Virus record (IMG/VR): IMGVR_UViG_3300010396_000021
Span: 1 to 44,979 of that record
Length of the DNA: 44,979 nucleotides
Strand: one strand, 5' to 3'
Origin: a virus
Positions 23,206 to 28,766 of the stretch are shown in pieces. The stretch's first letter is position 1; the number at the start of each line of letters is the position of its first letter. The notes beneath the pieces were generated by a model that had not been told where the DNA came from, made no database searches, and worked only from the letters and a program-made list of their open reading frames with translations. The translations under genes were made by a program, and so were the position numbers.

Positions 23206-23390
23206 GGGGAGTCCTCGGGCAGCAGTTTTCTGAGCGCCTGTTGTGCCCGCCTGAAGCCGCCCATTTCTGCCCTTTGCAGCTCCTCGTGCCTTCCACACGA
23301 ACCCCGTTTGGGCACCATTCGCAGGTTCAGGAACTCGCGGACTGCGGCCTCGATCCGCCCCTCCTTCGTCTCCACCGAGGGCTTAGGCAT
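23202..23390 (-). CDS. Hypothetical small basic helical protein (62 aa)
   Basis: 62 residues: VREFLNLRMVPKRGSCGRHEEL followed by FRRAQQALRKLLPED. Basic and helical. It overlaps the upstream gene by 8 nt and the downstream gene by 4 nt. Role unknown. Confidence 0.65.
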   Translation of the reverse strand: MPKPSVETKEGRIEAAVREFLNLRMVPKRGSCGRHEELQRAEMGGFRRAQQALRKLLPEDSP

Positions 23391-23688
23391 TGGGGAACGC
23401 TCCCGCCTCTGGCAGGTCGGGGTACGCTCGGGTCTTGCGCAATACGCGCTCAGGGCAGTCCCATGTGTAGCGAGCCTCGCCCTCTCGCCGCCCGATGCGC
23501 CGCGCTATCTCAACCGGCACCTCGCCGTCGCCGATGTACGCGCTGCCGATGGCGTAGTCGAGGTCGCACTTCTCGGGGTCCGCGTCGTTCTCGTCCCACT
23601 TGACGCACCGCTCGCAGTTGCGGGCTTGCCAGTCGGCGAACTGCGAGCCGCTGTCGAATGGCCGCTCAGTCTCCTTCGTCTCCATCAC
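23383..23688 (-). CDS. Hypothetical Cys-containing protein (101 aa)
   Basis: 101 residues. Four Cys (NCERCVKWDENDADPEKCDLD, then TWDCPERV) could bind zinc. The pattern FADWQARNCERCVK recurs in small phage proteins. It follows the transglycosylase gene by 22 nt; whether it belongs to the modification pathway is not known. Confidence 0.7.
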   Translation of the reverse strand: MMETKETERPFDSGSQFADWQARNCERCVKWDENDADPEKCDLDYAIGSAYIGDGEVPVEIARRIGRREGEARYTWDCPERVLRKTRAYPDLPEAGAFPNA

Positions 23689-23710: not shown

Positions 23711-24418
23711 TCATGCTGCGAGCTCTAGCTGTTGACCAACACGACGCCAGCGAGCGGGACATTGCTTGCCGTCCCAGCGTTCAGCCAGTGAGCGGGCCGT
23801 GTTCTGATTGCGGTTGTGGTTCTGTGCCACGTCAGTCGAGTCCACGCTGGCGAAAGGGAAGCGGTCCTCAACCAGCGCCATGCCTCTGAGCATGTGCAGC
23901 GCGACTGGCGGCGTTCCATCCTCATCGCAGATCACGTCCATCGCTTCGTCCATGCGGCGATACCAGCGCGGCGTTCTGAGAATCGCGTAGTCAGCCGACG
24001 AGCCGATGCAGACCCTCGGCCACAGATCGCATAGGCGCTCTAGGCGCGCGATCCGCTCGTGCATATGCCAGACGGGTGCTCCCTTCTCGCCGAAGGGCCA
24101 TTGCGCGATGAGACGGTCGTTGAAATATTCGTCGCCTTCGATCACATCGGGCATCACCGCCCAGCTCGAATGCCCCAGCCAGCGCCCACAAAACTCGTAG
24201 TAGCCATCCCAGTCGGGCACGGCGCCCCGCTTCCACACCGAGAAAGCACCGTTGTCCAGCATGACGCTCTGCGCGATCTCGAAGATGACCGCTGTTTCGG
24301 CCTCTCGCGCTGCCTCGTAGGAGATGCAGAACGAGCGCCCTGAGAGCGAGAGCAGTTCGCTCCGGGGCGTGATGGGCGTCCCATGGAAATGCTGGGTCAG
24401 CGCTCGGCCCTGCCCCAT
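23711..24418 (-). CDS. dpdA: TGT/DpdA-like transglycosylase (DNA 7-deazaguanine insertion)
   Basis: 235 residues, shorter than tRNA transglycosylases. Motifs follow the order of the TGT barrel: LDNGAFSVWKRG (Asp55, as the DSGGFQ motif), AVMPDVIEGD (Asp91), VWHMHE, VCIGSS, LHMLRGMAL, then FASVDSTDVAQN, where the nucleophilic Asp should lie (Asp193 or Asp196). TGT swaps guanine for a 7-deazaguanine base; DpdA relatives do it in DNA. It overlaps queD by 22 nt and a YhhQ-like transporter lies a few genes upstream, so DNA is the likely substrate and defence against restriction the likely purpose. Family by motif reading, not by search; a tRNA substrate is possible. No zinc Cys cluster is seen. Confidence 0.75.
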   Translation of the reverse strand: MGQGRALTQHFHGTPITPRSELLSLSGRSFCISYEAAREAETAVIFEIAQSVMLDNGAFSVWKRGAVPDWDGYYEFCGRWLGHSSWAVMPDVIEGDEYFNDRLIAQWPFGEKGAPVWHMHERIARLERLCDLWPRVCIGSSADYAILRTPRWYRRMDEAMDVICDEDGTPPVALHMLRGMALVEDRFPFASVDSTDVAQNHNRNQNTARSLAERWDGKQCPARWRRVGQQLELAA

Positions 24419-24702
24419 CGCTGTTTGTCCTCCCAGACGGTGACGGAGAGTAGGAGCGGCGAAGCGTTCAACAGCACGCTTGCGATGTTCTCGACCGTGG
24501 ACGGCTCAAATGACTCATTCAAGTCCTGATCGTTGAACGCGCCCCATGCCCAGAGGCGGTCCAACTCGTCCGTCGATGTACCGCCCTCGGCCACCAGTTC
24601 CACCGTGTAGTCGTGCTGGTGCGGGTGGCACCACGGAGACTCGAAGTCGGGCAGCGAGTGGGTTGCCCTGAAGCGGTAGATGCGGGCTACGGTGGTCTTC
24701 AT
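24397..24702 (-). CDS. queD: QueD-like 6-carboxytetrahydropterin synthase
   Basis: 101 residues, a usual length for QueD. Zinc ligands are His15 in FRATHSLP and His28 and His30 in CHPHQH; catalytic Cys25 sits just before them. PSTVENIA (the pTxEN motif) is near 68 and the C-terminal Glu is in VTVWED. QueD turns dihydroneopterin triphosphate into carboxytetrahydropterin, the second step of preQ0 synthesis. The first step (FolE) and later steps (QueE, QueC) are not encoded here and must come from the host. It overlaps the transglycosylase gene. Confidence 0.85.
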   Translation of the reverse strand: MKTTVARIYRFRATHSLPDFESPWCHPHQHDYTVELVAEGGTSTDELDRLWAWGAFNDQDLNESFEPSTVENIASVLLNASPLLLSVTVWEDKQRWGRAER

Positions 24703-24911
24703 CGGACAACACCATCGCGGTCCCGTTTCGGCTCAATGCGAGGGTAGGCGGCGAGGGCTTCGTCGTGGCTTGCCCCGCCGAGGCGCATCCCTATCCGTTT
24801 GAGAACGCGCTCAGCTTCCTCCTCGGTGCCACCCGTCCACTTCTGCGCGAGTTGCTTGAGGTCCGCGCGAACCTCAGCGTTTGTCCATCCGGTGTAGTCC
24901 CGTTCGCTCAT
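24699..24911 (-). CDS. Hypothetical small protein (70 aa)
   Basis: 70 residues: a helical N-terminus (YTGWTNAEVRADLKQLAQ), then a Glu/Arg-rich helix (EEAERVLKRIGMRL). Overlaps queD and the upstream gene by 4 nt each, so it is translated with the modification genes. No family recognised. Confidence 0.65.
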   Translation of the reverse strand: MSERDYTGWTNAEVRADLKQLAQKWTGGTEEEAERVLKRIGMRLGGASHDEALAAYPRIEPKRDRDGVVR

Positions 24912-25138
24912 GCCAGCCCCTTACCTTCAGCGGCGAGGCGTGCTCGTCGTTCGTCATCAAGCATCGCCCGGAGCTTTAGGTTCTCCTTGTCGGTGGCCTG
25001 CGCCCGCATCCGCGCTTTGTCGCGTTGTTCGCGGACTTCGACGGTGATCGCGTGGGCACGCCCAACCGCAAGCTCCATCTCGTCCCGCGTGGGCTGTGCC
25101 GTCGAATCAAGGTCCAACCTCTCAATGCCGAAGATCAT
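24908..25138 (-). CDS. Coiled-coil small protein (76 aa)
   Basis: 76 residues, helical throughout: DEMELAVGRAHAITVEVREQ, RDKARMRAQATDKENLKLRA, MLDDERRARLAAEGK. A single charged coiled coil with no motif of a known enzyme. 4-nt overlaps on both sides. Confidence 0.65.
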   Translation of the reverse strand: MIFGIERLDLDSTAQPTRDEMELAVGRAHAITVEVREQRDKARMRAQATDKENLKLRAMLDDERRARLAAEGKGLA

Positions 25139-25392
25139 TCGCCCGCGTCCAGCCTCTCGCGCAGTTCCTTTGCAAGCGTCGGGTTTTCACCCTCCACCGC
25201 ATCCGCATACGCTCGCAGCGCGGTTCCAGCATGGGGGTCATGCGACGGGATCAGCGTGAACCTAAACTCCTTGACCTCTTCGCCCGTGTCGTTGCGGATG
25301 ACCGTGAACTTCTCGTAGTAGCCTTTGGGGTCCATAACATTCTCCGATTCGGCTTGCTTGACCTTGTGCGGGTAGATGATTGCTCTCGTCAC
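25135..25392 (-). CDS. Hypothetical protein (85 aa)
   Basis: 85 residues from GTG 25392, overlapping the transporter stop as GTGA. Beta strands (YYEKFTVIRNDTGEEVKEF, RFTLIPSHDPHAG) precede a helix (ALRAYADAVEGENPTLAKEL). Unknown function; lies between transporter and queD genes. Confidence 0.65.
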   Translation of the reverse strand: MTRAIIYPHKVKQAESENVMDPKGYYEKFTVIRNDTGEEVKEFRFTLIPSHDPHAGTALRAYADAVEGENPTLAKELRERLDAGE

Positions 25393-25916
25393 GCCAGCGC
25401 CTTAGCCGTGCGACGAGAGGGCAGCAGCCACACGATCACCAGCGACCACACGAAGCACCCGGCGAGCTTGGCGAAGGATTGAGCGGTAACGATCTGCCAG
25501 TCAAAGCCGAAGGCGATCCAGACGAACAGGATCGAGTCCAGAGCCGCGCCGCCGATGGCTGCGATGTTGGCGCGTTCGACCCAGGGTTTGCGTCGGGCGA
25601 GGTGGTAGATCGCGCCCTCTAGCGTCTCTGAGGAGGCAAAGGCGATAGCCGAGGCGATAGCGATGGTCGCTGTGGCGTTGCTGCTGTTGAGCGCATAGGA
25701 GAGGCCCGAGCCAGCGAGGATCAGCCCCGCCATCTTCAGCCACGGTTTCGGATACCACCAGCTCTGAAGCGCGTCCCGCGTGCAGAGATCCAGGCCGATG
25801 AAGAAGAAGGCCGTGACGATGCTCGCCTCTGGCCCGTAGTGGGTGATGATGAGGTTGGCGCTGACGATTGCCGCCAGATAGAGCGCGATCAGCGATGGCA
25901 CCTTCAGTCGCGGCAT
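25389..25916 (-). CDS. yhhQ: YhhQ/VUT-like membrane transporter for a 7-deazaguanine precursor
   Basis: 175 residues from ATG 25916, chosen for its GAAGGAGG site 5 nt upstream; in-frame ATGs at 25940 and 25958 also have coupling or weak sites. About five or six membrane helices, with YLAAIVSANLIITHYGP, FFFIGLDLCTRDALQSWW and WIAFGFDWQIVTA. The IVSANLI opening and the conserved D(L)xxRD element are those of YhhQ/VUT transporters, which import queuosine precursors such as preQ0. In the phage operon it would supply the base for the transglycosylase. Confidence 0.75.
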   Translation of the reverse strand: MPRLKVPSLIALYLAAIVSANLIITHYGPEASIVTAFFFIGLDLCTRDALQSWWYPKPWLKMAGLILAGSGLSYALNSSNATATIAIASAIAFASSETLEGAIYHLARRKPWVERANIAAIGGAALDSILFVWIAFGFDWQIVTAQSFAKLAGCFVWSLVIVWLLPSRRTAKALA

Positions 25917-25954: not shown

Positions 25955-26227
25955 TCATCGGTGTTCCTGGGTCGAGCAACGAGGACAGAAATCGTCATCT
26001 CCGCGCGTCTCCCAGTCGTCGGGCAGCTCAGCGGAGGGCGCTTCCGCTCCGCAGCCGTCACAGAGGCGGCGGACGCCCATCGCGATCACCGGGTCGGGCT
26101 GCCCGAGAACCTTGGCGATCGTGCGGAGGAGATCGGCGGTTGCCTGTCCCGCCTCCTCAGCGGCCTCGGCAGACTTGAACGGCGGCGTCGATGTAATGCG
26201 CACCTCTGCTGGCTTCTCCCCGCTCAT
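25955..26227 (-). CDS. Zinc-ribbon small protein (90 aa)
   Basis: 90 residues. The C-terminal half has CDGCGAEAPSAELPDDW, then FCPRCSTQEH, a two-pair zinc ribbon. The N-terminus is helical (AAEEAGQATADLLRTIAKVL). Its stop TGA lies over the first in-frame ATG of the transporter, so coupling is possible. Confidence 0.7.
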   Translation of the reverse strand: MSGEKPAEVRITSTPPFKSAEAAEEAGQATADLLRTIAKVLGQPDPVIAMGVRRLCDGCGAEAPSAELPDDWETRGDDDFCPRCSTQEHR

Positions 26228-26553: not shown

Positions 26554-27600
26554 TCAGTCGTCCTCCCCTAGGGCCTGGATCAGCGACGCCGTTAGCTGCT
26601 CTACGTCCCAGTCGGTGTAGACATCGGCGGTCGTCTGGATCGAGGCGTGGCCGAGGAGCTTCTGCTCCGCCTTGAGGTTGCCCGTAGCGTCGAGCAGGCG
26701 CTGTCCTGCCGTGTGCCTCGCGGCGTGCATGTTCATCGTGCGCCCGGTCCCGGTTGCGCCCTTCGGAGCGAGGCCCGCGTCGTTGAGGCGGCGGTGCCAC
26801 CACATGTGGAGGGCCGTGCTGCTCATCGGTCGCTTCGGGAACCGCCGCAGGCCGACTCGCGGGATCGGCTTGACGACGCACATCAGGAAGTCGGTGGGCT
26901 TCGCCTCCACGTCGAGGATGTGGCGCTCGAGGTCCATCCACAAGTGCGGGTCGGGCAGCGGGAGCTCGCGGACCTTCTGGCCCTTTGTGAAGATCGTCAG
27001 GCGCTTGCGCTGGTGGTCGAAGTGCCGGAACTCGACGGCGGCGAGCGCGCCCTTGCGGATGCCGTAGTCGAACAGCAGCCGCAACGCGATCCGGTCACGC
27101 AGGCTCTCGGCGGAGGCGATCAGCGAGCGGCGCTGGTCCGGCGTGAAGGTGCTGCGGTGGATGTCGCGTTTCTTCGCCCGCTCGATGTTGAGCGTCGGAT
27201 TGCCGTGCAGCCTTCCGATGCGCTGGAAGTGCTTGAAGAAGTCCGTGACGTGAGCAAGGCAGACGTTGTAGGTGCCCGGCGCTCCGTCGCCCCAGCGAGC
27301 GTCGAGGAACTGTTCGAGACGGGCGGTGCCAGTCGGTGGCTCGAAGTCCTCGACGGTGAGGTCCGGGAAGTCGCGGGCGAGCTTGTCGAGCGTGCCCTCA
27401 TAGCTGCGGTAGCTCGCCGCGGTCAGCCTCTTGCGCTTGGCGCGGAGGTAGGCGGCGACATCTTCGCCGAGGGGCAGCAGCTCGTAGGATTTGTCCCGCA
27501 CCGCCTCCCGGAGCATAGGCGCGAGCAGCTGAATCTGCTCTGGCGTCAGGCGCTCGCCGATTTCGAGCGTCCGTCCGTTGAGGTTGAGGAGGCTACCCAT
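26554..27600 (-). CDS. int: Tyrosine integrase
   Basis: 348 residues from ATG 27600; the longer open frame upstream overlaps other genes and lacks a start signal. The N-terminal ~120 residues are the arm/core-binding SAM-like domain (AAYLRAKRKRLTAASYRSYE). The catalytic residues are in order: Arg in FDYGIRKGAL (near 182), HAARHTAG with His-x-x-Arg (near 290), LLGHASIQTT (near 315) and nucleophilic Tyr in ADVYTDWD (near 325). It overlaps the SLOG gene by 8 nt. It would integrate the genome at the tRNA-type site encoded just downstream. Confidence 0.95.
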   Translation of the reverse strand: MGSLLNLNGRTLEIGERLTPEQIQLLAPMLREAVRDKSYELLPLGEDVAAYLRAKRKRLTAASYRSYEGTLDKLARDFPDLTVEDFEPPTGTARLEQFLDARWGDGAPGTYNVCLAHVTDFFKHFQRIGRLHGNPTLNIERAKKRDIHRSTFTPDQRRSLIASAESLRDRIALRLLFDYGIRKGALAAVEFRHFDHQRKRLTIFTKGQKVRELPLPDPHLWMDLERHILDVEAKPTDFLMCVVKPIPRVGLRRFPKRPMSSTALHMWWHRRLNDAGLAPKGATGTGRTMNMHAARHTAGQRLLDATGNLKAEQKLLGHASIQTTADVYTDWDVEQLTASLIQALGEDD

Positions 27601-27949
27601 GGGAAAACTCCCGGACTGGGATGCCTGCGGCCTTCGCTCGCTTGATGCAGCCTTCGGTACCTGAGCCACCCGGAAGGGCAATGAGGAGGTCGGCGCCAGC
27701 GTCCACCATCTCCTGATTGCGGATGTGGAACGCTGCGGGCGCGCCGTGCTTTGCGATGTCCGGCGGATGCGGCTCCACGGCCCATCCACGTCCAGCCGCC
27801 TCCCGCGCCGCGAGGCGGTCAGCGCCGCGCTGCGAGCCATGCACGAGGCAGAGGCGATGGGGTACCAGCCCGCCGTCCACATAGGCGAGTGCCTTGCGAA
27901 CCACGTTCACGTTGTGGTAGTCCCGACCGCCACACACGATGACCCTCAC
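27593..27949 (-). CDS. SLOG/YspA-like (DUF2493-type) protein
   Basis: 118 residues from GTG 27949, overlapping the mIHF-like stop. It opens with VIVCGGRDYHN, has LCLVHGSQRGADRLAAREA, and ends with DLLIALPGGSGTEGCIKRAK. These are the GGR, HGxxxGAD and PGGxGT motifs of SLOG Rossmann proteins that bind nucleotide-derived ligands. Phages often carry one next to recombination genes; its job is unknown. Not DprA: it lacks that family's C-terminal domain. Confidence 0.85.
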   Translation of the reverse strand: MRVIVCGGRDYHNVNVVRKALAYVDGGLVPHRLCLVHGSQRGADRLAAREAAGRGWAVEPHPPDIAKHGAPAAFHIRNQEMVDAGADLLIALPGGSGTEGCIKRAKAAGIPVREFSHG

Positions 27950-28242
27950 GCCGACACCGCCTCTCGCAGCATTCGAGCCTGCCTCTCGCTCAAAGCTCCC
28001 AGCTTCTTGTAGGGGGAGACGCGGATTCCGTTGGCGATCCTGCCCGCCTTCACCCTCCCGATCTTCGGTATGGCGACTAGGAACTCGTCCACTCGGAAGT
28101 GCGGCGCCCACTTGGACTTCAGGGCTTCTGAGACGGTCAGCTCTCCTGCTCTGAGGGAGTGCTTGAGGTGGGACTTGCCTGTGCGGACCGCGTTGGCGTT
28201 GGCTAGGGCTTGCCGGCGCTGGCTCAGTTCGGCGGGCGTCAC
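27946..28242 (-). CDS. mIHF-like integration host factor
   Basis: 98 residues from GTG 28242, overlapping the upstream gene as GTGA. The pattern (QRRQALANANAVRTGKSHLK, HFRVDEFLVAIPKIGRVKAGRIANG, GALSERQARMLREA) follows actinobacterial mIHF: a basic helix, then a helix-hairpin-helix-like PKIGRVKA and the LGxLxxRQ end. Host mIHF bends attP for mycobacteriophage L5 integrase, so a phage-borne copy two genes from int suggests self-supply of this cofactor. Confidence 0.8.
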   Translation of the reverse strand: MTPAELSQRRQALANANAVRTGKSHLKHSLRAGELTVSEALKSKWAPHFRVDEFLVAIPKIGRVKAGRIANGIRVSPYKKLGALSERQARMLREAVSA

Positions 28243-28766
28243 GACTCGCCCCTCTCCAGGCCGAGTGCGGAGGCGGGGTCCAAGCGCCGAGGCCCGGTCG
28301 CGCCCGACGCGATTGCGGCGACCTGTCGGCCATTCCAGCTCTCGACGTGCTCTATCCACGCTGCCCTGAGGTCGCGGCGGTGCTTCTCGCCCCAATCCGG
28401 GTCATCGAGAGGCAGCTGTCCAAGGCGCTCGAGCCCCTGGTGCTCGATGAAGGCGGCGATGAGCGGATGCAAGCCGGTTGGGATCAAGCCCTTCGCCGCT
28501 GAGCGGTAGATCGTGGGATACGCCTCATCGAAGGTGGGGCGCTCGGGTTCGGAACGCAGCTCGGCGAGCAGGTCGCTCACCGCCGGCCGGGGGTAAAACT
28601 TACGCCCGGAGTGCAGCAGGCGCTTCAGCGCCACGATGACCTGCGCCGGCTCAACGTCATCCAGCAGCACCCGGGCGGCTTTGCGTTCGGCCTCGTTGAA
28701 GTCGCCGGGCCAGCCCGCTTGCAGTAGAGCGGCGAAGGCGTCCCACTGGTCGTCGGTCCAAGTCAT
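28239..28766 (-). CDS. Replication-associated (helicase-loader-like) protein
   Basis: 175 residues, helical, with an N-terminal DQWDAFAALLQAGWPG and a GRKFYPRPAVSDLLAEL segment. Such small helical proteins paired with a winged-helix initiator often load the replicative helicase in siphoviruses. No ATPase motif is present. It overlaps the initiator-like gene and mIHF-like gene by 4 nt each. Assigned by partner and layout, not by motif. Confidence 0.55.
   Translation of the reverse strand: MTWTDDQWDAFAALLQAGWPGDFNEAERKAARVLLDDVEPAQVIVALKRLLHSGRKFYPRPAVSDLLAELRSEPERPTFDEAYPTIYRSAAKGLIPTGLHPLIAAFIEHQGLERLGQLPLDDPDWGEKHRRDLRAAWIEHVESWNGRQVAAIASGATGPRRLDPASALGLERGES

Follow-up and report, generated by a model that had tools for sequence, protein, structure and literature searches.

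The window analysed here, a stretch of 44,979 nucleotides that makes up an entire IMG/VR virus record, carries within one operon a short DpdA-family gene and two genes of base supply, one encoding a transporter of the Vut_1/YhhQ type (VUT) and the other a QueD-like protein. We consider it rather likely that the set is a salvage-fed cassette through which a temperate tailed phage modifies its DNA with 7-deazaguanine, and that the QueD-like protein in it is a relic or has been reused. The unusual part is the presence of both supply genes in one operon; related phages carry one or the other. This reading starts from what the present analysis observed: the families of the proteins, their conserved residues, the layout of the operon and the VUT-or-QueD pattern.

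The record has a GC content of 64%, and Pfam/PHROG searches show that it encodes a terminase, a portal, a major capsid protein, a tape measure, tail genes, a tyrosine integrase and a replication initiator. The phage is tailed and temperate. Upstream of the integrase gene and on the same strand, the ORF at 27593-28333 has a C-terminal YspA/cpYpsA SLOG domain (PF10686, 2.7e-15), which is of the nucleotide-binding type. In the set itself (Table 1), transcription runs from VUT through three small ORFs to the QueD-like gene, the DpdA-like gene and then a 101-aa ORF. The QueD-like and DpdA-like genes overlap by 22 bp, and the overlaps of the three small ORFs lying between VUT and the QueD-like gene are of 4 bp. 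With overlaps of 4 to 22 bp all the way from VUT to DpdA, the genes form one operon, on the minus strand, as an earlier sequence-only reading had proposed for the three genes of the pathway. For VUT the ORF-caller chose an upstream TTG at 25979; the ATG at 25916, preceded by AAGGAGG, is the likeliest start. The PHROG matched by the 85-aa ORF is annotated as 'sulfatase-modifying factor enzyme', a function for which this ORF seems too short.

Table 1. Coordinates of the operon genes and of the neighbouring features in the window.
Feature	Coordinates	Strand	Evidence and remarks
101-aa ORF directly downstream of DpdA	23383..23688	-	22-bp gap, Shine-Dalgarno; weak PHROG_6074
Short DpdA-family 7-deazaguanine DNA transglycosylase (by sequence), 235 aa	23711..24418	-	PHROG_887 4e-50
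QueD/PTPS-fold protein (predicted), 101 aa	24397..24702	-	PF01242 2e-5; Foldseek to 4ntk 2.3e-4
70-aa operon ORF	24699..24911	-	4-bp overlaps; no confident Pfam/PHROG family
76-aa operon ORF	24908..25138	-	4-bp overlaps; no confident Pfam/PHROG family
85-aa operon ORF	25135..25392	-	PHROG_9572 6e-18, N-terminal part only
Vut_1/YhhQ-type (COG1738) queuosine-precursor transporter, 175 aa	25389..25916	-	PF02592 1.2e-7; PHROG_4899 4e-28
Tyrosine integrase	26554..27882	-	PF00589 4.6e-19; PHROG_1 7e-39; 0.6 kb upstream of the DpdA set

Judged by its sequence, the product of 23711-24418 is a member of the DpdA family. PHROG_887, which it matches, also takes in the DpdA proteins of phage 9g (317 aa, 2e-98) and of Salmonella phage 7-11 (234 aa, 7e-74). 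When a profile of 72 relatives was compared by hhalign, E values of 8e-8 with 9g DpdA and of 1.5e-35 with 7-11 DpdA were obtained; blastp between the window protein and 7-11 DpdA gives 37% identity over 165 aa. The 9g motifs LDSGAF, HAGEP, VHGF and CDSS are paired by hhalign with LDNGAF, HMHE, LHML and VDST of the window protein. D55 (LDNGAF), H118 and D193 (VDST) correspond in the alignment to D72, H141 and D215 of the 9g protein, and D55, N56, G57, H118, H175, D193 and S194 are invariant across the 72 sequences; D55 and D193 are the putative TGT-type catalytic Asp pair. H175 aligns with H196 of 9g, the residue that distinguishes DpdA from DpdA2 (Hutinet et al., 2019; PMC6884629), and because this His196 equivalent is present the window protein is assigned to DpdA, not to DpdA2. 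For the 9g enzyme, insertion of preQ0 or G+ into DNA has been shown experimentally in E. coli (PMC6884629).

An AlphaFold (AF2) model of the DpdA-like protein, built with 67 sequences, reached a pLDDT of 95. Among viral predicted structures, Foldseek matched it to several phage 'queuine tRNA-ribosyltransferases' and to a short relative (E 1e-24); in the PDB it matched mainly generic TIM barrels and no tRNA-guanine transglycosylase (TGT), with the 7-deazaguanine-related CBASS Cap10 complex 9ntn among the more specific matches. PDB sequence searches with the DpdA-like and the QueD-like proteins gave no useful match. The sequence-only reading had seen here a TGT/DpdA-type enzyme and had named a profile search against DpdA as a check; the shared PHROG, the hhalign result, the conserved Asp and His residues and the confident model matching phage queuine tRNA-ribosyltransferases all agree with it. 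The same reading had noticed that the 235-aa protein is without a zinc Cys cluster, and indeed the translation contains no CxCxxC site. As there is likewise no Pfam or NCBIfam match, TGT families included, identity as a TGT was rejected. The missing zinc site is the ordinary state of short DpdA. The suggestion that so compact an enzyme could be a distinct subtype did not survive: 7-11 DpdA has 234 aa and relatives are common (104 phage records and at least 579 IMG/VR stretches encode them), which rules out a new compact TGT subtype.

The transporter gene product scores 32.7 bits with PF02592 (Vut_1), above the cut-off of 27.2, and the YhhQ/VUT-type membrane protein recognised earlier is thus borne out. 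Transport of preQ0 in E. coli requires the type member, YhhQ (PMC5372724). The PHROG to which the window VUT belongs is also that of the DpdA-adjoining VUT in Rhizobium phage N3_2. Both NCBIfam equivalog cut-offs are missed (TIGR00697, 16.2 against 50.95; NF008406, 14.3 against 252), and the substrate could therefore be another purine. A single-sequence look-up in IMG/VR found no close relatives. YhhQ homologues have been reported from some phages, with no correlation to any phage group (Hutinet et al., 2019; PMC6884629). A VUT adjoins or sits close to the short DpdA in Pam5, RHph_N3_2, RHph_X2_30, PEAT2, AB3P2 and Flyfo.

The QueD-like protein passes PF01242 (PTPS) just above the cut-off (25 bits against 22.4). 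Its single-sequence AlphaFold model is of modest confidence (pLDDT 73); the closest Foldseek matches are E. coli QueD (4ntk) and archaeal PTPS, and those of the second tier are archaeosine synthase QueF-like. According to this model, the product of 24397-24702 has the QueD fold. In PTPS/QueD proteins the Asp-His pair that precedes LN has a catalytic role; in the window protein FNDQDLN replaces LDHxxLN, and the pair has become Asn-Asp. The zinc-type residues His15, His28 and His30 are kept, within a C25-H-P-H28-Q-H30 stretch that reads CxxHQH, with Cys25 displaced, and not CxxxHGH, the signature of QueD (PMC5041015). The QueD equivalog TIGR03367 is missed by far (20.2 bits against a cut-off of 89.25). 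Signature motif, loss of Asp-His and TIGR03367 score together rule out a canonical QueD. The sequence-only reading had credited the protein with the zinc His set and the catalytic Cys: the His set stands, the Cys fails on its spacing, and the loss of Asp-His had been overlooked. Its idea that QueD provides partial synthesis is not supported, on the same three points. From its residues, the protein is unlikely to act as a normal CPH4 synthase, and has most likely been left over from an older cassette of the synthesis type, or reused. The ORF is intact and overlaps that of DpdA, which counts against simple decay. Single-sequence look-ups in IMG/VR and in phage records found no close relatives.

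QueD-like proteins encoded near short DpdA elsewhere (n = 29) have a Cys at the catalytic place in only four cases (L108, L082, L115 and L121); in several that position is Asp or Glu, and the Asp-His pair is retained in most. Eight of the 29 adjoin QueE, one QueE just passing its equivalog (TIGR04508, 240.6 bits against 240); in those phages the QueD-like family is therefore part of a synthesis route. On this comparison of residues, the window protein is among the most altered copies of the DpdA-linked QueD-likes. Five members that adjoin both QueE and short DpdA (L072:2954-3271, L058:3312-3662, L073:4660-5010, L074:4702-5007 and L068:6007-6609) have Asp or Glu exactly at the catalytic-Cys position; their motif, (D/E)xxxHGH, is unlike every QueD/PTPS signature given in PMC5041015.

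Genes for import and synthesis side by side had been called an unusual combination, and a census of short-DpdA loci upholds this. We classed 150 loci (phage, IMG/VR and prophage), drawn by similarity to the window DpdA and many of them on fragmentary contigs, by their content within about 5 kb, using our own profiles. VUT only was found in 48, a QueD-like gene with or without QueE in 29, neither in 72 and both in one, the window; the two occur together in none of the other 149. Whole-record Pfam searches over 42 phages, three of which had been chosen through their VUT, detected VUT in 20 and PTPS in 11; the window alone has the two together, and no record gave a QueC or FolE match. Hidden QueE, QueC and FolE genes were searched for in the window record, with no match to any of them; therefore, the phage cannot make preQ0 alone.

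On the DpdA tree the VUT and QueD states are interleaved, with 20 changes and a supported VUT/QueD sister pair (L020/L083). Exclusion of one by the other gives a Fisher value of 5e-7 on 77 distinct tips without the window, these tips being related. Simulation under independence puts the chance of zero overlap below 0.01 when conditioned on similar marginals, the Mk simulation fitting poorly unless so conditioned; a tree-based independent-pairs sign test has a median p of 0.25, with too few pairs for significance. Mutual exclusion of VUT and QueD is well supported, not proven, the counts and the interleaving on the tree carrying more weight than any single p-value.

A further small gene was observed in the census. 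A protein of about 80 aa, PHROG_37496 ('unknown function'), adjoins short DpdA in 42 of the 150 loci (L034:4756-5004, L128:4750-4998, L013:4768-5016 and 39 further loci), VUT and QueD both being absent from 34 of the 42. Its invariant residues, a Cys, two Glu and a His, follow one another as in QueF-type T-folds, and its top PDB profile match, a weak one (E 0.21), is archaeosine synthase QueF-like. Perhaps it is a mini QueF-L that tailors the inserted base.

Other explanations of the window set were weighed against the salvage-fed cassette. That the QueD-fold protein has been reused to bind or alter the 7-deazaguanine, as QueF-like T-fold enzymes do, before or after DpdA inserts it, the final base then being a further derivative, we regard as doubtful. 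The second-tier Foldseek matches, the recurrence of small T-fold-like proteins beside short DpdA and the presence of a Cys25, even if displaced, speak for it; the zinc-type His residues, however, are retained as in PTPS/QueD, base binding is putative, and the single-sequence model has the modest confidence given above. It is unlikely that import and synthesis both work, with the QueD-like protein as an active CPH4 synthase boosting the host preQ0 pathway and VUT adding imported base, and an active synthase is a less likely reading than a relic or reuse. The intact ORF, translationally coupled to DpdA, the retained zinc-type His and the AF2 model, whose nearest structures are E. coli QueD and archaeal PTPS, are compatible with activity, and Cys-less QueD-likes elsewhere adjoin QueE, so that the family can serve a synthesis route. 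Against this, the window copy has CxxHQH and Asn-Asp where CxxxHGH and Asp-His are expected and scores far below TIGR03367 (cut-off 89 bits), the record has no recognisable QueE, QueC or FolE, and no other of the 150 loci has both supply genes. Action of the short TGT-like enzyme on host or phage tRNA or on protein, as in CBASS Cap10, and not on phage DNA, is less likely still: the most TGT-like PDB match is a Cap10-CdnD complex with NDG modification (9ntn, prob 0.98-0.99) and DNA activity is documented, in the literature searched, only for longer relatives such as 9g DpdA, but the enzyme shares PHROG_887 with 9g DpdA, has the DpdA-specific His and lacks the TGT zinc site, and no Cap10-type partner gene was recognised nearby.

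Comparison with known systems places the set among phages that have parts of it. Modification of phage DNA by DpdA is already known, as are short DpdA proteins and YhhQ in phages (PMC6884629). Salmonella phage 7-11, whose DpdA is in group 3 of Hutinet et al. (2019) and which was described without preQ0 synthesis genes (PMC6884629), shares with the window the short enzyme and the same motifs; unlike the window, it has no VUT or QueD annotated adjoining, and its DpdA is only 37% identical. Pseudanabaena phage Pam5 and Rhizobium phages RHph_N3_2 and RHph_X2_30 encode short DpdA proteins 42-52% identical to that of the window; their VUT/DUF165 transporter gene is adjacent or at most about 1 kb away, and they have no QueD-like gene. 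In Caulobacter phage DMCA (DMCA_034c/035c) the genes for short DpdA and for a small QueD-like protein overlap and are arranged as in the window; this phage is without VUT, and its QueD-like protein is Cys-less, with Asp-His retained. Enterobacteria phage 9g has the same catalytic Asp and His positions in its PHROG_887 DpdA, whereas that enzyme is longer and accompanied by a full FolE-QueD-QueE-GatQueC pathway with a canonical QueD, and the phage makes dG+. E. coli QueD (4ntk) has a fold in common with the window copy, which is without the QueD signature and Asp-His; E. coli YhhQ (COG1738) belongs to the same family as the window VUT, which is short and below equivalog cut-offs. Our literature search, outside which lay most subscription papers and perhaps a later DpdA survey, found no paper on both supply modules in one operon or on the either-or pattern.

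The hosts were considered as well. Among prophages whose host genomes are known, those of the VUT type have 10 hosts, 6 of them with a strong QueC, whereas all 14 hosts of the others have one (one-sided Fisher about 0.02, computed by hand). The hosts without strong QueC (L104, L107, L114 and L117), three of the four coming from metagenome bins, all carry VUT-type short-DpdA prophages. These host QueC counts fit the idea that VUT is useful where the host cannot make preQ0. For the window phage, the terminase is nearest to those of Rhodococcus phages and the structural genes resemble those of actinobacteriophages, a resemblance that suggests an actinobacterial host but is not proof of it. The terminase is 56% identical to one in an actinobacterial genome (G157) that is without strong QueC and without Vut_1; strong QueC is present in only 33 of 149 genomes of the actinobacterial phylum. 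Contig C93 of G157 (L157/L158) contains a prophage-like region with tail genes in the order of the window and without the DpdA set. If the host is of the actinobacterial kind, QueD would be of no use by itself, and the base could come only from import.

In the salvage-fed cassette that we favour, VUT would bring preQ0 or preQ1 into the infected cell, and the short DpdA would exchange guanines of phage DNA for the imported base. The reaction may follow the double displacement of TGT, with D193 as the Asp nucleophile that attacks the nucleoside at C1' and D55 in the role of acid/base. The modified phage DNA would then resist host restriction enzymes, while the QueD-like protein would be a leftover of a synthesis variant, now redundant, or be reused. 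More broadly, and only tentatively, short-DpdA phages may draw on alternative modules, namely VUT import, QueD-based synthesis in which QueE may or may not take part and, perhaps, a mini T-fold protein that tailors the base; the window would have been caught between two of them, with the importer gained and QueD losing catalytic residues or gaining a new role on the base.

How DpdA-only phages obtain the base was left open by Hutinet et al. (2019), and the modification status of such phages was considered difficult to predict (PMC6884629). The replacement of transporter and QueD-like genes by one another, together with the host QueC pattern, turns the question of supply into a testable prediction of the base of each phage, for which the window, as the single exception with both supply genes, is a natural test case.
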